From positions 620,001-684,000 of the forward strand of contig JAHBVC010000001.1 of assembly GCA_019637755.1 (NCBI GenBank): a stretch of 64,000 bases of DNA, read 5' to 3'. Source of the stretch: Anaerolineales bacterium (GTDB taxonomy: Bacteria; Chloroflexota; Anaerolineae; Anaerolineales; UBA11579). Positions within the stretch are counted from its first letter, which is position 1. Each line of letters starts with the position of its first letter. This document shows positions 382 through 48,877 of this stretch, piece by piece. The position numbers and the translations under genes were made by a program. The notes beneath the pieces are model-generated. The model made no database searches and had not been told where the DNA came from. It worked only from the letters and a program-made list of their open reading frames with translations.

Positions 382-936
382 CTAGGCCAGCGTGATCTGC
401 TCGGCCAATTGGCGCACCGCCTGCATGCGCGCTTCGTCTTCGGGCGCGCCGTTGCTGGCCAGCATCAGCGTGTTCTCGGCGGCTTCGAGGATACCGCTGG
501 GATCGCGGCCATCCAGGGCCAGCAGCGGGGCGGCGCTCCAGCCGCCCAGGGCGACCCGCGTGCGGCCCGAAGGCCAGCGGGCCAGCGCCAGCCACACGCC
601 ATCGGCTTCATAGTATTGCAGGGTGGCCAGCAGGCTGAAGCGCAGGGCGGTCAGGCTGCCGGGTATGCCGCTGGCACGCAAGGCGAGCAAGTTGCCGTAG
701 CTCTGCGTGCGGCCATCGGCATATTCTAGTTCGGCGTCAAGGGCCAGCATGGCGGCCGCCAGGCGGGCGCTGCCCGGTGCGCTGGCGATGTACGCCAGCG
801 CGGTGGGCTGCGCCGCTGGCTCCTGCTGCAGCAGCGCCTGCAAGGCAGCGGGAAGCTCCGGCAGCGCAAGCAGGTCCGACAAGCTCGCCTCAGCGCCGAC
901 CTGTAGCATATTGCCCTTGATGCTTACGGCGCTCAC
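382..936 (-). CDS. Degenerate molybdenum-hydroxylase FAD-subunit-like protein
   Basis: This 184-residue protein has no certain function. Its layout recalls the second half of CoxM/CutM-type FAD subunits: a VGAEASLSDLLALPELPAAL stretch near residue 13, an ALDAELEYADGR stretch near 65, and VALGGWSAAPLLAL near 130 (compare the family pattern RVALGGVAPxP). The first FAD-binding domain and the RN-x-ATIGGN motif are missing, so flavin binding is doubtful. The start is GTG at 936 and overlaps the upstream thioesterase stop by 4 nt (GTGA), implying translational coupling. A free-standing protein of unrelated function remains possible. Confidence 0.5.
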   Translation of the reverse strand: MSAVSIKGNMLQVGAEASLSDLLALPELPAALQALLQQEPAAQPTALAYIASAPGSARLAAAMLALDAELEYADGRTQSYGNLLALRASGIPGSLTALRFSLLATLQYYEADGVWLALARWPSGRTRVALGGWSAAPLLALDGRDPSGILEAAENTLMLASNGAPEDEARMQAVRQLAEQITLA

Positions 937-1415
937 GCGTCACCATCCGCATAGACGCGCCAACCCAGCTCATCCAAATTGACGTCGGTGAGGTCCTCGG
1001 GCGGCAGGGCCACCATCAGGGCTTCAGCTTCGGCCAGCAGCTCGCCACTGGCGTCAAAGATGGCCGCCCGCGCCTCAGCCACGCGGCCACGGTCTTTGAC
1101 CGCCACGCCGGTGATGCGCAAGGGTTGCCCAATGGGCACATGCTTGCGATACTTGGTGGTGAGGCGCGCCGTGTACATAAAGCGATTGTGGTCATGCAGC
1201 ATAAAAACGCGGCTCACCGCCTCATCCATGATGGTGCTGATGACGCCGCCATGCACGATGCCTGGATAGCCCTCATAGACCTGCGGCACGCGGTACTCCC
1301 CCACAATGCCATTCTTTACCGCAGGGTCAGCATAGAACTGGAGCTTGAGCCCGATGGGGTTTTGCATGCCGCAGGCGAAACAGTTTTTTGAATTGGGGAG
1401 TTTTTGCATAGTCAT
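933..1415 (-). CDS. PaaI-family thioesterase (hotdog fold)
   Basis: A 160-residue single hotdog domain expected to hydrolyse acyl-CoA thioesters in the cytoplasm. The N-terminal NCFACGMQNPIGLKL segment is the Cys-x-x-Cys-Gly-x-x-Asn-Pro-x-Gly-Leu signature of a PaaI subgroup, and GIVHGGVISTIMDEA near residue 55 carries the HGG and Asp/Glu residues of the active site. The start may be ATG 1415 or ATG 1409; the shorter form begins MQKLPNSKNC. The stop overlaps the next gene by 4 nt. The substrate is unknown; neighbours give no clear pathway. Confidence 0.85.
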   Translation of the reverse strand: MTMQKLPNSKNCFACGMQNPIGLKLQFYADPAVKNGIVGEYRVPQVYEGYPGIVHGGVISTIMDEAVSRVFMLHDHNRFMYTARLTTKYRKHVPIGQPLRITGVAVKDRGRVAEARAAIFDASGELLAEAEALMVALPPEDLTDVNLDELGWRVYADGDA

Positions 1416-1444
1416 GAAAGCAAAGTCCTATCCCTGTCGCTTGG

Positions 1445-1912
1445 TTAGTTAGTTGCTTGGTCGGAGATAAATTCGTCGGGCAGCTCAACCGTTGCAGAAT
1501 TAACTACATATTCGATAGCTGTCTCTCGTGCCGAAAAACCTGCGCGTTTGTGCTCAGCCAGATAGGCACTCAATCGACGGATCTTCTTGCGAACATCGAC
1601 GGTCGTGGCGAGGATCAAATCGAAATCAGCCTGTGAAAGATAGCCTTGATCAAGGGCTATATAAAGCTGTGATTGCACTTCAGCTGTGGAACGAAATGAA
1701 TAGCTTAAGAAGCGAACAAATTCGCCGTCATATCCTGCATCAAACCCTTCCGCGACATTGGACATGACAGATATTGCCGCTTTGCGAATTTGGTCCCGCA
1801 ATGCAAAGTCTTTCGCAAAGGACCCTGCATTTGTTTGTAGATAGATCTGATTGACAAGATCGCGCGCTGATTGCCAGACACGTAAATCCTGAAACCGGTT
1901 AACTGTTGCCAT
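1445..1912 (-). CDS. Four-helix bundle protein (S23 / 23S rRNA intervening-sequence protein family)
   Basis: The protein carries the standard family opening FQDLRVWQSARDLVNQIY, then LRDQIRKAAISVMSNVAEGF near residue 45, and FLSYSFRSTAEVQSQL near 70. Members form small pentameric helical bundles; they were first found inside 23S rRNA intervening sequences but also occur alone, as here, and the function is unknown. I place the start at ATG 1912, since the TTG six bases earlier has no ribosome site. It interrupts the spacing between the thioesterase and cofC and is flanked on both sides by TTGGTTAG/ATCAACCAATC-type short repeats, so it may be a mobile passenger. Confidence 0.85.
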   Translation of the reverse strand: MATVNRFQDLRVWQSARDLVNQIYLQTNAGSFAKDFALRDQIRKAAISVMSNVAEGFDAGYDGEFVRFLSYSFRSTAEVQSQLYIALDQGYLSQADFDLILATTVDVRKKIRRLSAYLAEHKRAGFSARETAIEYVVNSATVELPDEFISDQATN

Positions 1913-1930
1913 GACCAATCAACCAATCGA

Positions 1931-2557
1931 CTAGACGACTTCGTTAGTCGCTCCCTTGTTTACATCACTCAATTGTAGAAAGTCCAAATCCTCCGGCACA
2001 TCCACATCATGCGAAAGGGAGAGCAGCTCGAGTACATGCAGGCGTGCACCCGCTGTCGCCGCCGCGGCGCTATGCGCCTGGAATGAACCCTCGCCGAACT
2101 GGTATTGCACCAACCCCACCGGGTTGACATACAGCGCGTTGGTGCCTTCGTGGTGATGGTCAGGGGCAATCACTACGGCCGGCCCTTCTTTGCCGGCTTG
2201 CAGCATGGCGGAGAGATCCGCCGGGCTGAGCTGCGGCAGATCAGCGGGCACTACCAACACACTGGTGGCGGTATAGGTCTGCGCCACGGCCGTGGCACGG
2301 GTGAGTGCCACGTTGAGGTGTGGCGCCCCATCTTCTTGCAGTGTGCGCGCGCCGTGCTCACGGGCAATCGCCAGCGCCGCCGGGTCTCGGCTGACCACGA
2401 GCACTTCGCCCAACTCGGGCACGCTCTTGAGCGTATCGATGGTGTGGATCAGCATGCGCTCGTTGAGAGCAGCGCGGTCATCTTCGGATAGCACTGGCGC
2501 CAGGCGAGATTTGCCGCGGCGCAAGGGTTTAACGGGGACAATCGCCCAAATTGACAT
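1931..2557 (-). CDS. cofC: 2-phospho-L-lactate (or phosphoenolpyruvate) guanylyltransferase
   Basis: CofC/FbiD activates 2-phospho-L-lactate or phosphoenolpyruvate with GTP to give the nucleotide donor used by CofD in coenzyme F420 synthesis. The 208-residue protein begins IWAIVPVKPLRRGKSRLAPV, the nucleotidyltransferase signature (Pro-Val-Lys, then Gly-Lys-Ser-Arg-Leu), and has VVPADLPQLSPADL near residue 100, the Asp-containing metal site. An AAAGGA ribosome site precedes ATG 2557. It lies just downstream of cofD on the same strand. Whether the substrate is phospholactate, PEP or 3-phosphoglycerate cannot be told by eye. Confidence 0.9.
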   Translation of the reverse strand: MSIWAIVPVKPLRRGKSRLAPVLSEDDRAALNERMLIHTIDTLKSVPELGEVLVVSRDPAALAIAREHGARTLQEDGAPHLNVALTRATAVAQTYTATSVLVVPADLPQLSPADLSAMLQAGKEGPAVVIAPDHHHEGTNALYVNPVGLVQYQFGEGSFQAHSAAAATAGARLHVLELLSLSHDVDVPEDLDFLQLSDVNKGATNEVV

Positions 2558-2583
2558 CTAGGTTCCTTTGGGTAGTGGGAGGC

Positions 2584-3516
2584 TCATGCCAGCAGGTGGC
2601 TGCCGAAGGCCAGCACCTGGCTGGCCAATTGAGCACGGTCGCTGCGGTCTTTCATCACCGTGGCAGTCACCAAGGGCATTATACCGAGCGCGGCCACGGC
2701 CTCGCTCTGCGCGGCGTCCACTTCGTCAAAGACGAAGCCGCGCAGCAAGCTGCCGTAGTGTTGCGCCACGGCCAGCGCACTGGGCAGGATGCCCAGCTCG
2801 CTGAACATCTTGGCCGCCGGGCCCTTGAGCGCCTGGCCGCCGATGATGGGTGAGATGGCCACTATTGGCTTGGCCGCCAGCGCGTCGCGCACGCCGGGTA
2901 CGGCCAAAATAGGTGCCACGCTGACCCACGGGTTGGAGGGGCACACGACGACAAGCTCGGCGGCGGCGATGGCGGCGAGAACGCCAGGCGCGGGCTGCGC
3001 CTGCTCCACGCCATCGAAGCGAAAGCCGGATACCTGCGGCTCGCAGCGGCGGGCAACGAAGTACTCTTGGAAAGCCAGCTCACCCTCGTTGGTGTGCACC
3101 ATGGTGCGCACGGGCTGGTCGCTCATTGGCAGCACACGCTGGGCAATGCCCCACGCCGCGCAAAAGTCTGCGGTGATGGCGCTGAGCGCCTCGCCGGCGC
3201 GTAAACGGCGCGTGCGCTCCAGATGCGTGCCCAGGTCTTTATCGCCGAGCAGGAACCAGCTCGGCCCACCCAGGGTTTGAATGTTGCTGAAGGCTTGCTG
3301 GGTCTCGTCGATACGGCCCCAGCCGGTGATCGGGTTGGCCAGCTCGGCAAGGGTGTAGCACACGGTGTCGAGGTCTGGGCAGATGGTCAACCCAAAATGC
3401 TCAAAGTCGTCGCCGGTGTTGACGATGATAGTGAGATCTTCGGGTGGCAGGACCTGCGCCAGGCCATCGGCCAGTTTGGCGCCGCCCACCCCACCGGCCA
3501 GTGCGAGAACTTTCAT
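2584..3516 (-). CDS. cofD: LPPG:FO 2-phospho-L-lactate transferase
   Basis: CofD/FbiA transfers the phospholactyl (or enolpyruvyl) group to the deazaflavin FO, giving F420-0 or dehydro-F420-0. The 310-residue length fits the family. Visible motifs are LALAGGVGGAKLADGL at the N terminus, IIVNTGDDFEHFGLTICPDL near residue 30 (the conserved Asn-Thr-Gly-Asp-Asp), WFLLGDKDLGTHLERTRRL near 90 and VVCPSNPWVSVAPILAVPG near 200. The ATG at 3516 follows the C26 gene by 6 nt and cofC follows after 26 nt, so the three form a transcription unit. Confidence 0.95.
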   Translation of the reverse strand: MKVLALAGGVGGAKLADGLAQVLPPEDLTIIVNTGDDFEHFGLTICPDLDTVCYTLAELANPITGWGRIDETQQAFSNIQTLGGPSWFLLGDKDLGTHLERTRRLRAGEALSAITADFCAAWGIAQRVLPMSDQPVRTMVHTNEGELAFQEYFVARRCEPQVSGFRFDGVEQAQPAPGVLAAIAAAELVVVCPSNPWVSVAPILAVPGVRDALAAKPIVAISPIIGGQALKGPAAKMFSELGILPSALAVAQHYGSLLRGFVFDEVDAAQSEAVAALGIMPLVTATVMKDRSDRAQLASQVLAFGSHLLA

Positions 3517-3522
3517 ATGCGG

Positions 3523-4242
3523 TTAACGGCTGGCCTGCACCAGAGCGCGGAACAGATTTTGCATGCGCGCATCATCGGGCAGGCACTCCGGGTGCCACTG
3601 CACGCCGAGCGCAAAGGGATGCTCCGGCAGCTCGATGGCTTCCACCAGGCCATCCGGCGCGCTGGCCACGGCTTTGAGGCCAGCCGCCAGCTCTTTGATG
3701 CCCTGGTGATGCAAGCTATTGACCTCGACGATGGGCTCGCCCAAAATTTCGGCCAGGCGGCTACCCTCGCTCACCTGCACCGGGTGGGCCAAATAATCCC
3801 AGGGGTGGTCAGGAAAGTTGCTGTGCTGCAGTGCAGCGGGCAACTGGTCAGCGATGTGGGTGTACAGGCTGCCACCGAGGGCCACGTTGGTGATTTGCAA
3901 ACCACGGCAGATGCCCAAAAAGGGCTTGCTGTCCTCAGCGGCTTGGCGTACCAGTTGAATCTCGATCTCATCCCGCTCGGCGTCAAGGTCGTAGAGCTTT
4001 TCGTGTGGCTCGCCATTGAAGCGGTGAATTTCAATATCGCCGCCACCGGTGAAGACCAGACCATCCAAGCGGCCGAGCAGCTCGCGCAGCTTGTCGAGCG
4101 GCAAGTTCAATGGGATCAGCACAGGGATTGCGCCGGCGCGTACCAGCGCCTCGCTGTATGGGCGCGGCGTTTGGATTACATCAATCTGGTAAAAATCAGA
4201 GCGTGCGCTGCGGGTGATGACGCCAATTAGTGGGCTGGACAT
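3523..4242 (-). CDS. Class I glutamine amidotransferase-like gamma-glutamyl hydrolase (peptidase C26)
   Basis: The 239-residue protein belongs to the gamma-glutamyl-GABA hydrolase / folate gamma-glutamyl hydrolase family. The nucleophile is the Cys of FLGICRGLQITNVALGG (near residue 115), and the His-Glu pair is in LGVQWHPECLPDD (near 220). HHQGIKELAAGL near 175 is also typical. It sits inside the F420 cluster, 6 nt before cofD, yet has its own -10 box directly before the ATG. Known members cut gamma-glutamyl bonds; F420 carries a gamma-glutamate tail, so trimming that tail is a plausible but untested role. Polyamine (PuuD-like) catabolism is the alternative. Confidence 0.85.
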   Translation of the reverse strand: MSSPLIGVITRSARSDFYQIDVIQTPRPYSEALVRAGAIPVLIPLNLPLDKLRELLGRLDGLVFTGGGDIEIHRFNGEPHEKLYDLDAERDEIEIQLVRQAAEDSKPFLGICRGLQITNVALGGSLYTHIADQLPAALQHSNFPDHPWDYLAHPVQVSEGSRLAEILGEPIVEVNSLHHQGIKELAAGLKAVASAPDGLVEAIELPEHPFALGVQWHPECLPDDARMQNLFRALVQASR

Positions 4243-4248
4243 GGGGAT

Positions 4249-4254
4249 ATTCTA
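4249..4254 (-). promoter_or_regulatory. -10 box of the C26 gene (leaderless start)
   Basis: TAGAAT on the minus strand, followed by 6 nt and the ATG at 4242. No ribosome site lies between them, so the mRNA probably begins at the start codon. Confidence 0.6.
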
Positions 4255-4279
4255 AAGCTAATCAAATGCAATCAACATC

Positions 4280-4321
4280 AATCAAGAGCAATCTGTTTTG
4301 ATTAACTGATTGCTCTTGATT
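4280..4321. repeat. AT-rich intergenic palindrome
   Basis: Perfect 14-bp inverted repeat AATCAAGAGCAATC with a 14-nt centre, one of a family of ATCAA-x-GCAATC palindromes found in gaps throughout the window. It separates the nitroreductase stop from the promoter of the C26 gene and could act as a terminator stem. Confidence 0.75.
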
Positions 4322-43149: not shown

Positions 43150-43195
43150 CGAAGGCGATTAATAGATTAATCGATTAATCTGTTAATCGCCTTCG
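43150..43195. repeat. 46-bp palindrome overlapping the PBP-like gene's stop
   Basis: Two 23-bp arms beginning CGAAGGCGATTAATAGATTA meet at ATCGAT with one mismatch; the stop codon at 43183-43185 lies in the right arm. Same core as the palindromes at 13625 and 48877. Confidence 0.85.
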
Positions 43196-45522
43196 CCTTC
43201 TATAGTCACTACCGTATAGGCGCGTTGCACGTCGCCGTCTTCATTCCACACTTGTAGCTGGATCACCCACAACCCGTCCAAACCCTGCGTATCCCATTCT
43301 GCGCGCGGCGGCGTGCCGCGGCCGGCCGCCAACTGCAGCCAGCGCTGCGGGTACAAGCCCTGCCCCACCTGCAAATCCCACTGCGGGTAGCCGGCGGCGC
43401 GGTTGGCGCGCACACTCAGCATGCCGGATTGCGTACTAAACCGTTCGGGCTGCTCGATCGCCAGCGCCGGGCTGGCAGGTTCGAGCGGCACACTATCGAA
43501 CTGCGACGGCGGCAGCGCCAGCCCGGCGGCCTGCGCCTGGCTACGCCACGCGGCAGGCACATCCATAAACACTTGCGTCTGCACAAACTCCGGCGGGGTG
43601 AACACAGTGGCCAGGCGGCCATTCAATGAATTGACTGCCAGGCGTTGGTACAAACTATCGCTAAAACGCGGCTCACTGCCACTGATGAAGTATTCGCGCC
43701 GCGTGTGCGGGCAGTCCTCGTCTGGTAGTTGGCCGGAAGGCACGCACACCATCATCGAGCGCACACCGCCGGGCGCCTGCCAATCGCGGATCGGCAGGCC
43801 GGCGTGGGCCGCGCTGAACAACGCGGCCCAGTCCGCCGCTCCCAGGCTAAGCACGACACGTTGCGGGCTGTAGCCCAGTTGCCAGGCGCCGGAGCCTTCG
43901 GGCGCCAAGGCCGCCGGGCGGCCCAAGGCCAGCATCGCCTGGCGGCTGGCAGCCGAGCGCACACTGACATCGCTCAGACTATTGGTAACCAGAAAGGCCA
44001 GCTCGGCGCTGGCCAAGGGGCGCGATTGCGGCTGGCTCCAATCTAAAAGCACCTGCCCGGTTTCGTCAGTGATGAAAAGCAAGCTACTTGGCTGCAAGCG
44101 CCCCTGGATGAGCTGGCCGCTGAGCTGGCCACCGCCCAGGCTGGCATAGGCGGCCGCCAGCTCCAGCGGGCTGAGTGCCGCCGCGCCCAGCGCCAGATCA
44201 CCAGCCTGGCGCGGCGAGAGCGCGGCATCAAAGGGCGCCAAGCCGGCGGCGGCCAACACGTTGGCGGCGTGGTAGGCGCCCACCTGCTCCAGCGCGGCAG
44301 CAGCGGGCTGTGGCACGCCCTGCGCCAAGGCCTGGCGCATACTTAGCGGGCCTTGCAACTCGGCAGGTTGGCTACGGTCAAAATTCCAGGTCAACGCCGC
44401 CGGGGCGCTGCCGCCGGCAAAAGCATCCAGATAAATGAACGGCAATAGCCCATTGGCCGCGGGCGCCTGCAGGTTGGGCTGGCCGCTCAATGCCAACAGG
44501 CGGCCATTTACCGCATCCAGTGCCAAGGCCAGCTCACCCTGGCCTGCAAAAGCGGCCTGCAAGCTGCCATCCTGCGTGGTGATCAGAGTCAAGCCGCCAC
44601 GCGCCAGCGCTGCGTGGCCCAGGGTGGCTTCGGCCTGGGCCAGCGCCAACTGCGTGAAAGCATCCAACGCCAGCGGCGCGGCGGCATCGTTGAATTGCAA
44701 TGGCTGCGTGAGCGCCGCGGCCAGGCCGGCCTCATCGAGCATGCCGTGCTGCTGCATCGCCAGCAGCACCAACTGCGTCAGGCGTTGCAGCGTGGCGGGC
44801 TGCTGCAGCGGGTCGACTTGCGGCGCGTTGGCCATGGCGGCCAGAGCCGCCGCCTGCGCGAGGCTGAGCTGGCGGGCAGGCATGCCAAAATAAAACTGAG
44901 CAGCACTCTCCGCCCCAAAAGTCCAATGGCCGAATTGGGCGCTGTTGAGCGCCCACGCCAGCACCTGTTGGCGGCCATAGCGCGCGGTGAGCTCGCTGGC
45001 CAGGATGCGGGCGCGCAACGCCTTGCGCCAGCCGGCGGGCTCGCCGGCCAGCAGCACCTCGCTCACCAGGCGTTCGGCCAGGGTGCTTGGCTGCGGGTTA
45101 GTGCTTAGCCAGGCCGTGCCGGCATGCTGCCAGAAGCGCGGATCGGTGCTGGCGATCAGCGCCTGCTCCACCTGCGGCGCCTGGCCCAGCTCAATGAATT
45201 GGCGCGGAGCGTGGTGGGGCAGCAATTCCAGCAGGGTCTGGCTGCCGCTGCGGTCTTGCAGGCGGCTGGGCTGTAGGAGCAGGCCGCGCTGTGTGTCCAT
45301 CAGCACAGGCACGGCGTTTACATCCGGCAGGTCTTGTGTGAGCCAGCGGTACGCCGGCAAGGCGGCCAGCGCCAGCAGCGCCGCCAGCACGCTGGCGGCG
45401 GCAAACAGGGCCGCGGCGGCCTTCAGTGCCAGCGCCGCCGGGTTGCGGCGAGCGGCGGCGCGGCGCGCTTTGCGGCGCTTGACCAACTCATACACTTGCA
45501 ATATCAGCGGGGGCTGTGACAC
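43183..45522 (-). CDS. Degenerate class A penicillin-binding-protein-like membrane protein
   Basis: A 779-residue protein built like PBP1: basic cytoplasmic start, one membrane helix (AAAALFAAASVLAALLALAA), a GT51-like domain and a transpeptidase-like domain, then Ig-like strands. The catalytic residues are gone: ALIASTDPRFWQHAG replaces the AxEDxxFxxHxG motif (Glu to Thr), the SxxK serine motif is not found where ANGLLPFIYLDAF stands, and the KTGT position reads GRPAALA. AAQFYFGMPARQLSLAQAAA still fits GT51. It is thus likely a pseudoenzyme or scaffold. I choose GTG 45522 because of a GAGAAT box 7 nt upstream; ATG 45591 would overlap the promoter of the facing gene. Confidence 0.8.
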   Translation of the reverse strand: MSQPPLILQVYELVKRRKARRAAARRNPAALALKAAAALFAAASVLAALLALAALPAYRWLTQDLPDVNAVPVLMDTQRGLLLQPSRLQDRSGSQTLLELLPHHAPRQFIELGQAPQVEQALIASTDPRFWQHAGTAWLSTNPQPSTLAERLVSEVLLAGEPAGWRKALRARILASELTARYGRQQVLAWALNSAQFGHWTFGAESAAQFYFGMPARQLSLAQAAALAAMANAPQVDPLQQPATLQRLTQLVLLAMQQHGMLDEAGLAAALTQPLQFNDAAAPLALDAFTQLALAQAEATLGHAALARGGLTLITTQDGSLQAAFAGQGELALALDAVNGRLLALSGQPNLQAPAANGLLPFIYLDAFAGGSAPAALTWNFDRSQPAELQGPLSMRQALAQGVPQPAAAALEQVGAYHAANVLAAAGLAPFDAALSPRQAGDLALGAAALSPLELAAAYASLGGGQLSGQLIQGRLQPSSLLFITDETGQVLLDWSQPQSRPLASAELAFLVTNSLSDVSVRSAASRQAMLALGRPAALAPEGSGAWQLGYSPQRVVLSLGAADWAALFSAAHAGLPIRDWQAPGGVRSMMVCVPSGQLPDEDCPHTRREYFISGSEPRFSDSLYQRLAVNSLNGRLATVFTPPEFVQTQVFMDVPAAWRSQAQAAGLALPPSQFDSVPLEPASPALAIEQPERFSTQSGMLSVRANRAAGYPQWDLQVGQGLYPQRWLQLAAGRGTPPRAEWDTQGLDGLWVIQLQVWNEDGDVQRAYTVVTIEGEGD

Positions 45523-45535: not shown

Positions 45536-45617
45536 GCATATTTTGGCGGGCGGCTGGCGTAAAAGCCGCCCCAAATCGCAAGGGTGTACAATAACTTTTT
45601 GAAAATAAGGAGAGTGC

Positions 45618-46745
45618 ATGGACCCCAAACAATTCCACGATCTGAACGTTCCTGAGCGCGTGCTGCTCGGCCCCGGCCCCAGTGAGATGCCGGCGCGGGT
45701 GCTGCAAGCGATGGCCATGCCGGTGATCGGCCACCTGGACCCGGCCTTTTTGCAGATCATGGATGACGTGCAGGAGCTCCTGCGCTTCGCCTTCCAAACC
45801 AAGAACCGCCTCACTATCCCCGTCTCCGGCACCGGCAGTGCCGGTATGGAAGCCGCGCTCAGCAACATGATTGAGCCCGGCGACCGCGTGCTCATCGGTA
45901 TCATCGGCTACTTCGGCGAGCGCATCTACAGCATGTGCGGCCGTTACGGCGCGATTGTGGACCGAATCGAAGTGCCCTGGGGCCAGGTGCTGGATGTTGA
46001 TGAGGTAAAGAAGCAACTCAGCCAGCACAAGTACAAGTTCCTGGCGGTGGTGCACGGCGAAACCTCGAGTGGCGCCAAGCAGCCCTACATCAAAGAGCTG
46101 GCCGCCGCGGCGCATGAAGCCGGTGCACTGTTCATTCTGGACACGGTTGCCTCGTTGGGCGGCGTGCCGGTTGAAGTGGACAATTGGGATGTAGACGTGG
46201 CCTTCAGCGGCTCACAGAAGGGCCTCTCGGCTTCGCCGGGTCTGGCTCCGCTGACGGTTGGCCCGCGCGCCGAGAAGGCGCTGGCCGAGCGCAAAGTGGG
46301 CGTAGGCAACTGGTACCTCTCCTTGGACGAGGTGCACAAGTATTGGGGCAAGGAGCGCACCTACCATCACACCGCTCCTATTCAACTTAACTATGCCATG
46401 CGCGAAGCGCTGCGCATCGTGGCCGAAGAAGGTTTGGAGAATCGCTTTGCCCGCCACCAAGAGAACGCCGAGACCCTGTGGAAGGGCGTAGAAGCGCTGG
46501 ATATGAGCATGCTGGTGGCGCGTGAGAACCGCCTGCACACGGTAACCGCCGTGAAGGCACCCTCGGTAGCGGTGCATGACCTGGTCAAGAACCGCCTGCT
46601 GAGCGACTACGGCATCGAAGTCGGCGCAGGCCTCGGCCCGCTGAAGGGCCAGATCTGGCGCATTGGCCTGATGGGCCACAGCAGCCGCAAGGAATACGTC
46701 ACGCTGGTGCTGGCCGCCATGCGTGAGATTCTGGAAAGCGCGTAA
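45618..46745 (+). CDS. Class V aminotransferase (alanine/serine-glyoxylate type)
   Basis: A 375-residue PLP aminotransferase. The PLP lysine is in AFSGSQKGLSASPGLAPLTV (residues about 194-213); LGPGPSEMPARVLQAM near 17 and VSGTGSAGMEAALSNMIEPG (about 70-90) bind cofactor phosphate, and ILDTVASLGGVPVEVD carries the Asp that pairs with the pyridine nitrogen. Likely converts glyoxylate and alanine or serine, which would feed glycine to the riboswitch-controlled system at 31114. TACAAT at 45586 and an AAGGAG site precede the ATG, so this gene is leadered. A terminator follows. Confidence 0.93.
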   Translation: MDPKQFHDLNVPERVLLGPGPSEMPARVLQAMAMPVIGHLDPAFLQIMDDVQELLRFAFQTKNRLTIPVSGTGSAGMEAALSNMIEPGDRVLIGIIGYFGERIYSMCGRYGAIVDRIEVPWGQVLDVDEVKKQLSQHKYKFLAVVHGETSSGAKQPYIKELAAAAHEAGALFILDTVASLGGVPVEVDNWDVDVAFSGSQKGLSASPGLAPLTVGPRAEKALAERKVGVGNWYLSLDEVHKYWGKERTYHHTAPIQLNYAMREALRIVAEEGLENRFARHQENAETLWKGVEALDMSMLVARENRLHTVTAVKAPSVAVHDLVKNRLLSDYGIEVGAGLGPLKGQIWRIGLMGHSSRKEYVTLVLAAMREILESA

Positions 46746-46762
46746 AAGAACAACGCTTATAC

Positions 46763-46794
46763 AAATGCCGTGGGCGATGCCCACGGCATTTTTT
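46763..46794 (+). terminator. Intrinsic terminator of the aminotransferase gene
   Basis: AAATGCCGTGGGC-GAT-GCCCACGGCATTT, 13-bp arms and a T-run. Confidence 0.92.
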
Positions 46795-46819
46795 GTTTGT
46801 GGCTGACGAGGGAATTCTC

Positions 46820-46825
46820 TATACT
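46820..46825 (+). promoter_or_regulatory. -10 box of the 130-residue gene (leaderless GTG start)
   Basis: TATACT 6 nt before GTG 46832; TTGTGG 17 nt upstream may be the -35. Confidence 0.55.
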
Positions 46826-46831
46826 CGTGCG

Positions 46832-47221
46832 GTGAAGACTTCCCAGATTCAACTCTCGCCGGATGGCGATTGGCGCAACACTCTGGCGCGTATCCGCGGC
46901 GGGCAGCAGGGCCGCGTGATCTTGCTATGGCCGGAGCGCGGCGAACCGCGTGCGCCGCGGCTTGTGCTGCAGTTGGCCGCCCGCCGCTGCCAGCGGCTGA
47001 ATGTGCCGCTGGCGCTGGTGACGGGCAAGGCGGATGTGCGCTTGCTGGCCCAGGAGTTTGGCCTGCCGGTATTTGCCAACGCCCGCCAGGCGCGCAAGGA
47101 AGTGTGGGACCTGCCGCCGAAGATAGCGATACCCAAATCGGCACTGAGCATGGAAGGTATCTACTTGCGCATCATGGCGGAGGAGCGACGGGCAAAGTTT
47201 ATGGGGACAAGTGAACAGTGA
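46832..47221 (+). CDS. Free-standing domain related to the N terminus of Chloroflexi baseplate-J-like proteins
   Basis: A 129-residue protein. Its core, RIRGGQQGRVILLWPERGEP, LVLQLAARRCQRLNVPLALV and TGKADVRLLAQEFGLPVFAN, matches by recollection the N-terminal region of large Chloroflexi 'baseplate J/gp47' proteins (RVLLVxP...LRRxAxxLGxxLALVTxDxxVRxxAxxxGIPVF). There it precedes a membrane part; here it is alone and soluble. Function unknown. GTG 46832 is chosen because of the adjoining -10 box. ruvX follows but with its own promoter. Confidence 0.6.
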   Translation: MKTSQIQLSPDGDWRNTLARIRGGQQGRVILLWPERGEPRAPRLVLQLAARRCQRLNVPLALVTGKADVRLLAQEFGLPVFANARQARKEVWDLPPKIAIPKSALSMEGIYLRIMAEERRAKFMGTSEQ

Positions 47222-47290
47222 GTAGTGAACTGTGAGCAGGCAACTAAACCAACGCATGTTCTCCTGTTCACTGTTTCCTGATCACTGCTC
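47211..47290. repeat. 7-bp degenerate repeat (GTGAACA) with inverted partner
   Basis: GTGAACAGTGAGTAGTGAAC ... and CTGTTCACTGTTTCCTGATC mirror each other between the orphan domain gene and ruvX. Confidence 0.7.
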
Positions 47291-47310
47291 ACGGGCTATT
47301 CAACTATAGG

Positions 47311-47316
47311 TACACT
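47311..47316 (+). promoter_or_regulatory. -10 box of ruvX (leaderless start)
   Basis: TACACT 6 nt before ATG 47323. Confidence 0.55.
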
Positions 47317-47322
47317 AGGTTA

Positions 47323-47745
47323 ATGCGAATCCTCGCCGTTGACCCCGGTGACAAGCGGATCGGCATCGCCCTGAGCGACGCCAGCGGCACCCTCGCCAGC
47401 CCCTTGCAGGTGCTGGCACATGAGAGCCGTGATGCCGATGCGGCGCACATCGCCGCCCTGGCCACACAGCACGGCGCCGAGCGCATCATCGTGGGCCAAG
47501 CCTTCGGCGAAGATGGCCAGCCCAACTACAGTGGGCGTAAAGCTGCCCGGCTGGCTGGCGCCCTGCGTGCCGCCACCAGCATCCCCGTGCAATTGTGGGA
47601 AGAAAGCTACAGCACGCAGGAAGCGCTGACCGCCCGCCGCGCAATGGGCGCAGGCACGCAGGATATTGACGCCAGCGCGGCGGCGGTGATTTTGCAGGAC
47701 TATTTAGATAATCAAAACCAATCGATTAATCGATTAATCGATTAA
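47323..47745 (+). CDS. ruvX: Holliday junction resolvase-like RuvX (YqgF)
   Basis: A 140-residue RNase H-fold nuclease thought to process 16S rRNA or Holliday junctions. The first catalytic Asp is in RILAVDPGDKRIGIALSDAS (residues 2-21), followed by RIIVGQAFGEDGQPNYSG (near 55), the Glu in LWEESYSTQEA (near 91) and the last Asp in GTQDIDASAAAVILQDYL. The final residues (NQSINRLID) are read from an ATTAATCG repeat. mltG follows 19 nt on and is its common neighbour in many bacteria. Confidence 0.93.
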   Translation: MRILAVDPGDKRIGIALSDASGTLASPLQVLAHESRDADAAHIAALATQHGAERIIVGQAFGEDGQPNYSGRKAARLAGALRAATSIPVQLWEESYSTQEALTARRAMGAGTQDIDASAAAVILQDYLDNQNQSINRLID

Positions 47746-47752
47746 CCGATTG
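47703..47752. repeat. ATCGATTA tandem repeat across the ruvX stop
   Basis: AATCGATT units repeat about four times over the last codons of ruvX, ending in a stop contributed by the repeat. Confidence 0.75.
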
Positions 47753-47764
47753 AAGGATAGATCA

Positions 47765-48877
47765 ATGCGTTTTATTGTCGCTCTCGGTCTCATCGCCATA
47801 CTGGCTTTCCTGGCCTTCCTTGGCGGCAGTACGCTGGTGGCACGCGCCGAGCAGCACTTCGGCCCGCCCTCGGCGCAGCTCAGCGCGCTGCAAGCATTGC
47901 GGCTGGGCATTGAGCTGGGCTGGCGGGCTGAGGCGCTGCGCCCGGTGAACCCTGCGGCTGCGCCGCAGGAGTTCACCATCACGGCAGGCGAGCCCACCGG
48001 TACGCTGGTTGCGCGCCTGCAAGCCGCCGGCCTGATCCGGGATGCAGGCCTATTCAGCAATTATCTGGTCTATAGCGGGCGTGACACGCAGCTACAGTCT
48101 GGCCGCTTTGAACTTAGTGCGACGATGAGCGGCGTAGAGCTGGCCAGCGCTCTGCTCGATCCCACGCCGCACCATGTGACCCTGGTGATTCTGCCCGGCT
48201 GGCGGCTGGAAGAGATCGCCGCCAGCCTGCCCAGCGCGGGCATTCAAGTGCCGCCAGAGGAGTTTGTACGCCTGGCCAGCAATACCCCCAATGAGCTGGC
48301 CCTGTATGCAGAGATGCCGACTGGCTCCTCGCTGGAAGGCTTCCTGCTGCCCGGCAGCTACGAAATCCCGCGCGGCGGGGATGCCACCACCCTGCTGCTG
48401 ACCCTGCTGCAAAGCGATGTGTTTTCAAGCACTATCACGCCAGAGCTGCTGGCCGGCTTCCAGGCACAAGGCTTGAGCGTCTACGACGCGCTGATCCTGG
48501 CCTCCATCGTGGAACGTGAGGCCGTGGTGAACTCCGAGATGCCGCTGATCGCCTCCGTGTTCCACAACCGCTTGGATATCGGCATGATGCTGCAAGCCGA
48601 CCCTACCGTGCAGTACGCCGTGGGCTATGATGGCCGCGGCCAATGGTGGCCCAGCCCGCTGACCGCGGCCGACCTGCAAACCAACTCGCCATACAACACC
48701 TACGTCTACAACGGCCTGCCGCCCACCCCGATCGCGGCCCCCAGCGCCGAGGCCTTGCATGCGGTGGCCTTCCCGGCTACTTCACCGTATTACTTTTTCC
48801 AGGCCGTGTGCGATGGCTCTGGGGCGCATGTGTTTGCGGTGACGTACGAGGAGCATTTGACGAATAATTGCCGCTAG
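47765..48877 (+). CDS. mltG: Endolytic transglycosylase MltG
   Basis: Cuts nascent glycan strands near the membrane and so sets their length. The 370-residue protein has one N-terminal membrane helix (FIVALGLIAILAFLAFLGGS), a LysM-like part (FTITAGEPTGTLVARLQAAG) and the YceG domain. The catalytic Glu is in LILASIVEREAVVN (near 245); VFHNRLDIGMMLQADPTVQY and TNSPYNTYVYNGLPPTPIAA are the family signatures. AAGGAT upstream of ATG 47765 is the ribosome site; the frame's ATG 15 nt earlier lies closer to the repeat. A wall function also attaches to the PBP-like gene at 43183. Confidence 0.95.
   Translation: MRFIVALGLIAILAFLAFLGGSTLVARAEQHFGPPSAQLSALQALRLGIELGWRAEALRPVNPAAAPQEFTITAGEPTGTLVARLQAAGLIRDAGLFSNYLVYSGRDTQLQSGRFELSATMSGVELASALLDPTPHHVTLVILPGWRLEEIAASLPSAGIQVPPEEFVRLASNTPNELALYAEMPTGSSLEGFLLPGSYEIPRGGDATTLLLTLLQSDVFSSTITPELLAGFQAQGLSVYDALILASIVEREAVVNSEMPLIASVFHNRLDIGMMLQADPTVQYAVGYDGRGQWWPSPLTAADLQTNSPYNTYVYNGLPPTPIAAPSAEALHAVAFPATSPYYFFQAVCDGSGAHVFAVTYEEHLTNNCR

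Follow-up and report, generated by a model that had tools for sequence, protein, structure and literature searches.

The Pseudo-PBP Gene and Its Domains

The window, a 64,000-nucleotide stretch of the genome of an Anaerolineales bacterium, carries on its minus strand a reading frame for a pseudo class A PBP (43183..45522; 779 codons and a stop), called here the pseudo-PBP. The first-pass annotation had described this gene as a PBP1-like protein that has lost its glycosyltransferase and transpeptidase residues, and the intact frame of 779 codons on which it relied does exist. The start is assumed to be a GTG; the frame stays open upstream of this codon, reaching a TTG at 45591, and there is no clear ribosome-binding site by which the start could be fixed.

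The encoded single chain begins with a predicted transmembrane helix region (residues 28-62, 45337..45441, minus strand), supported by a helix over residues 28-62 of the model and by a hydrophobic stretch in the sequence. A GT51-like domain without catalytic residues follows (residues 105-256, 44755..45210, minus strand), which is identified by a structure match and by Pfam model PF00912 (E 5e-22). The transpeptidase-like domain, likewise without catalytic residues (residues 326-585, 43768..44547, minus strand), was placed by structure alignment and by phmmer, in which the window protein matches class A PBPs and the second matched stretch is the transpeptidase and C-terminal region; no transpeptidase model was matched in the Pfam search. 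The chain ends in a segment that holds two cysteines, C593 and C604 (residues 586-690, 43453..43767, minus strand), and an Ig/BiPBP_C-like beta domain (residues 691-779, 43186..43452, minus strand), which is seen as strands in the model and in which 12 of 29 members match PF06832 and 17 of 29 match Big_7.

With a transmembrane anchor, a GT51 domain and a transpeptidase-fold domain in one chain, the protein is a class A PBP by fold and descent. Its top NCBIfam family is TIGR02074 (PBP1A), at 131.5 bits and below the cut-off of 508.75, as expected of a degenerate relative, and TIGR02073 (PBP1C) gives 83.7 bits, below the curated cut-off of 494.2. A plasmid search with the window protein returned nothing beyond distant GT51 matches. 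The N-terminal transmembrane helix, the GT51 fold, the transpeptidase fold and the order of the domains are shared with the bifunctional class A PBPs, such as S. aureus PBP2, E. coli PBP1b and S. pneumoniae PBP1a/1b; unlike these, the pseudo-PBP lacks the catalytic motifs of both enzymes and has a C-terminal Ig/BiPBP_C-like module.

In keeping with the earlier claim that architecture and length persist, the AlphaFold2 model of the window protein, computed from a 29-member alignment, has a mean pLDDT of 89.4 and a pTM of 0.77, and it matches many class A PBPs with Z of 28-34 (Foldseek and VIA-align), about 30 for PBP1s. Against S. aureus PBP2 (3dwk), VIA-align gives Z 32.2 with an rmsd of 4.1 over 497 residues, and against the transpeptidase part of S. 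pneumoniae PBP1a Z 29.9 with an rmsd of 2.5 over 295 residues; the GT51-like part matches the A. aeolicus GT51 domain with a TM-score of about 0.85, normalised by target. Both the GT51 and the transpeptidase domain are thus predicted to be folded and to be without catalytic residues.

Catalytic Sites

The catalytic positions of the window protein were read by alignment to active class A PBPs, some from the window genome itself and some from the order. The position of the GT51 catalytic glutamate (Glu1) is T126 (codon 45145..45147, minus strand), the change to threonine that had been noticed from the sequence, and that of Glu2 in the RKxxE motif is A171 (codon 45010..45012, minus strand), so that K167, A168 and A171 stand where R, K and Glu2 are expected. 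In the transpeptidase-like domain, the SxxK site reads N357-G-L-L360 (44443..44454), with N357 for the serine and L360 for the lysine, the SxN site reads G402-V-P404 (44311..44319), with G402 for the serine and P404 for the asparagine, and the KTG site is A540-P541-E542 (43897..43905), all on the minus strand. The absence of SxxK and KTG that had been proposed is therefore borne out.

Catalytic residues at shifted positions, one of two findings that the first-pass annotation had named as speaking against its reading, are rejected. The lysines of the protein are residues 15, 18, 34 and 167 only, and no SxxK string occurs over its full length; as no lysine lies after residue 167, a shifted SxxK or KTG is excluded. 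The KTG strings present in eight relatives are displaced from the true site by about 370 alignment columns. None of the residues that define a class A PBP as an enzyme (Glu1, Glu2 of RKxxE, SxxK, SxN and KTG) is found in the window protein, which combines an enzyme fold with the loss of the catalytic residues, as is expected of a pseudoenzyme.

The Intact Paralogue in the Same Genomes

The window genome (2.26 Mb, 97% complete) contains exactly two GT51 genes, the pseudo-PBP and an intact bifunctional PBP1 (G000:C2:401 kb); the check for an active PBP1 elsewhere in the genome, which had been suggested from the outset, thus found one with its motifs intact. It also contains three SEDS genes and three class B-sized transpeptidase genes with open frames of 594, 752 and 708 aa. 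With these genes, the wall could be made without the enzyme functions of the pseudo-PBP. The number of GT51 genes is exactly two in all 12 genomes that were searched in the window's family, the typed partner genes being motif-intact, and the dead homologues that were read in detail are accompanied in genome content by an intact PBP1 wherever the paralogues were typed.

Distribution and State of Homologues

The frame is intact in the window genome and in nine of the ten other genomes of its genus that were searched; the exception is G002, which is 72% complete and gave no strong orthologue match. The orthologues of these nine genomes, and one from a genome in a different genus, are 42-72% identical, and all are dead. 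The pseudo-PBP is shortened to about 780 aa in this genus, and other homologues of the order have about 830-1000 aa. A profile search of 250 sampled Anaerolineales genomes, each at least 90% complete, found a homologue in 207; catalytic state was read residue by residue in an aligned subset rather than in all 207. Because 43 of the 250 genomes have no match at the cut-off, the pseudo-PBP is not universal in the order. Many of the 43 belong to two genera of small genomes, g178 and g31 of family f13, which offer a natural contrast for learning what the pseudo-PBP does, and among the 43 is G060, whose member is degenerate and highly divergent.

A loss restricted to the window's genus is rejected, since homologues across Anaerolineales are dead too. 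In an alignment of 92 order-wide relatives, Glu1 is kept in 2%, the lysine of RK and that of SxxK in 0%, the serine and asparagine of SxN in 0%, and the threonine of KTG in 4%. Likewise, Glu1 and the SxxK lysine are missing from all 80 retrieved named loci, whose hosts include Anaerolineales MAGs, 'Ca. Desulfolinea', Brevefilum fermentans, Villigracilaceae and the isolate Anaerolinea thermolimosa IMO-1. A search of open-access papers turned up no description of a dead class A PBP from Chloroflexota.

In many relatives from other genera, the region of the dead site is under constraint rather than random, as is seen from the fixation of Glu2 (84%), the KTG-site lysine (92%) and a derived ALANDY motif, in which an aspartate is fixed in 95% of the 92 relatives and active orthologues have serine. 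This pattern bears on three alternative explanations. Enzyme activity that persists at a new or rearranged site might be read from the fixation of some derived residues, but the transpeptidase-like region of the window protein has neither a lysine nor an SxxK, and the SxxK lysine and the serine and asparagine of SxN are missing at the aligned sites from all 92 relatives; this explanation is extremely improbable. Alternatively, the protein may pair directly with the cell's intact PBP1 and raise or damp its activity, in the manner of a prozyme, as an allosteric or heteromeric regulator. The one dead gene and one intact PBP1 of each searched genome of the window's family would suit such pairing, as would the fixed residues, 84-95% in many relatives; however, the window's genus has lost Glu2, the KTG-site lysine and the ALANDY residues as well, and the partner genes vary in number and type in other families, so that a regulator of this kind is rather unlikely. 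A third explanation is that the GT51-like groove holds lipid II or nascent glycan unreacted, as a holder or sensor. The GT51 fold is retained (TM-score of about 0.85, as above), and relatives from other genera keep the residues that align with Asp127, Arg167, Glu2 and Gln150 at 83-93%, but the RK lysine is gone from all of them, STITQQ is eroded, and Arg167, Glu2 and Gln150 are absent from the window's genus; substrate binding of this kind is therefore unlikely.

Selection and the Location of Constraint

Estimated by NG86, dN/dS of the pseudo-PBP is 0.106 (G007/G008) and 0.199 (G009/G010) in close pairs of the genus, for which the active paralogue gives 0.039 and 0.071, respectively, and it is 0.13-0.30 among the nearest relatives of the window with dS near 1. 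By domain, nearly all comparisons fall within 0.05-0.30, with one short segment at 0.51, and constraint on the dead glycosyltransferase and transpeptidase domains is similar to that on the rest of the protein. Purifying selection maintains the pseudo-PBP, though less tightly than the active paralogue. This agrees with the earlier statement that selection maintains the frame, and the long-term selection expected of a pseudoenzyme is reflected both in dN/dS values that are mostly 0.10-0.30 and in the presence of the gene in 207 of 250 genomes across the order.

A slowly decaying relic without function would be consistent with the constraint being weaker than that of the active paralogue, with the reduced length in the window's genus (about 780 aa) and with the lack of a match in some genera. 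Against such decay, dN/dS is well below 1 in every domain, long open frames persist over the order, C-terminal residues are invariant, and the gene was retained after separate losses of catalysis; a relic is very improbable, and the decay in relatives that the first-pass annotation had named as its second contrary finding was not seen.

In the dead members of the order, conservation is inverted, the C-terminal cysteine and Ig-like part being more conserved than the glycosyltransferase and transpeptidase domains. Mean pairwise identity is 0.44 and 0.40 in the latter two, 0.52 in the cysteine segment and 0.49 in the BiPBP_C domain; the corresponding values for active orthologues are 0.60, 0.57, 0.48 and 0.46. 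All 29 dead homologues that were compared share C593, C604 and much of the motif around them. Because of this inverted conservation and the invariant cysteines, the C-terminal part is presumably the main carrier of function.

Gene Neighborhood

Genes read from their sequences as an aminotransferase, a small protein, a RuvX-like and an MltG-like protein (45618-48877) lie upstream of the pseudo-PBP in divergent orientation, and two genes, likewise read as ABC exporters, are convergent with it, an arrangement found in the window's subclade. The aminotransferase-RuvX-MltG order is common to most close relatives in the genus. Apart from the MltG-like gene close by (47750-48877), no operon link to wall genes was seen. 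A convergent ECF sigma/anti-sigma pair adjoins the pseudo-PBP gene in many genomes of the order outside the window's subclade, among them further members of the window's family and members of two more families (L043-L050, L064, L067 and L070); it is not beside the window's copy. The gene neighborhoods do not show co-transcription of the pseudo-PBP.

Origin of the Losses

Most other orders sampled in the class have an orthologue with all motifs intact. These active PBP1s of the X lineage (e.g., L093 and L108) belong to the same gene lineage as the pseudo-PBP, with an alignable C-terminal segment and a similar domain order, but they have ED..GGSSITQQ..RKxxE..SxxK..SxN..KTG intact and are longer (about 970-1140 aa). 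Judged from the tree, the pseudo-PBP is a descendant of a fully active bifunctional PBP1 of the class.

Dead versions also occur in two groups outside the order, family f46 and f33 with f58, in which the other typed PBP1 genes are intact except for one further degenerate copy in G226; wherever the other GT51 genes of a genome with a dead copy were typed, an intact gene of the same lineage was not seen among them. All dead proteins group together in a first tree (FastTree, LG). In a site-mixture tree from which the catalytic columns were removed, the dead f46 proteins stand beside active f46 proteins, and those of f33/f58 beside active relatives. A single origin of all dead copies is rejected by an AU test on a 32-row set under LG+G4 (p 0.0012), a value to be read with caution because branches are long and the constrained group was named only after the tree had been seen. 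By this rejection, catalysis was lost independently at least twice in one PBP1 lineage, and probably three times, which is the simplest count. The loss noticed in the window is thus real, and its scope had been understated, as it is ancient, order-wide and repeated in the class.

G226 carries, besides its dead X-lineage copy, a second degenerate PBP1, of the B lineage (L223; G226:C17, ORF 764-4321), in which Glu1, SxxK and KTG are all altered, and one motif-intact class A PBP is left in this genome. In another order, L117 (G243) and L116 (G211) keep KTG, or the serine and asparagine of SxN, while the SxxK lysine is gone; such intermediate states are useful for the order of losses.

Proposed Role

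With high confidence, the pseudo-PBP is a pseudoenzyme, that is, an order-wide, ancient, selected and doubly dead class A PBP. Of the proposal that it is a wall pseudoenzyme or scaffold, the first part has stood, given selection, an order-wide distribution, a well-folded model and the motif-intact PBP1 that the genome also holds; the scaffold part, like the exact role, binding partner and location of the protein, is something that we infer. The retention of the gene across the order beside a working copy probably reflects a non-enzymatic task in the envelope. The best explanation, which is favored with moderate confidence, is that the pseudo-PBP is a scaffolding or regulatory part of the envelope with a C-terminus that binds the wall or a partner. 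Judging from its residues, it would be unable to polymerise glycan or to cross-link peptides. The N-terminal helix and the GT51/transpeptidase body would anchor it at the membrane-wall interface, likely in or near a wall-synthesis complex, and the C-terminal cysteine and Ig-like part may bind the wall, the surface layer or a protein partner, with polymerisation and cross-linking being supplied by the intact PBP1 paralogue, class B PBPs and SEDS proteins. The wider view, that within one class of bacteria a class A PBP lineage has more than once become a pseudoenzyme that is doubly dead yet full-length and retained, serving as a dedicated scaffold or regulator of the envelope, is evenly balanced between likely and unlikely.

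A precedent for a PBP that acts without catalysis is B. subtilis PBP2B S309A, which fills an essential structural role while another PBP provides the activity (PMC5656894). PBP2B, however, is a naturally active class B protein whose inactivity was engineered, whereas the pseudo-PBP is a naturally dead class A protein. Non-catalytic roles of PBPs are usually studied by means of engineered mutants, and a naturally dead PBP1 kept across an order makes the non-catalytic function of a class A PBP testable, including in the cultured Anaerolinea thermolimosa. Automatic annotation will probably call pseudo-PBPs transglycosylases or PBPs, so that active wall synthases and beta-lactam targets would be overcounted in Chloroflexota. 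If the proposed role is correct, the pseudo-PBP would be an example from nature, spread across an order, of a bifunctional PBP that acts only non-catalytically.
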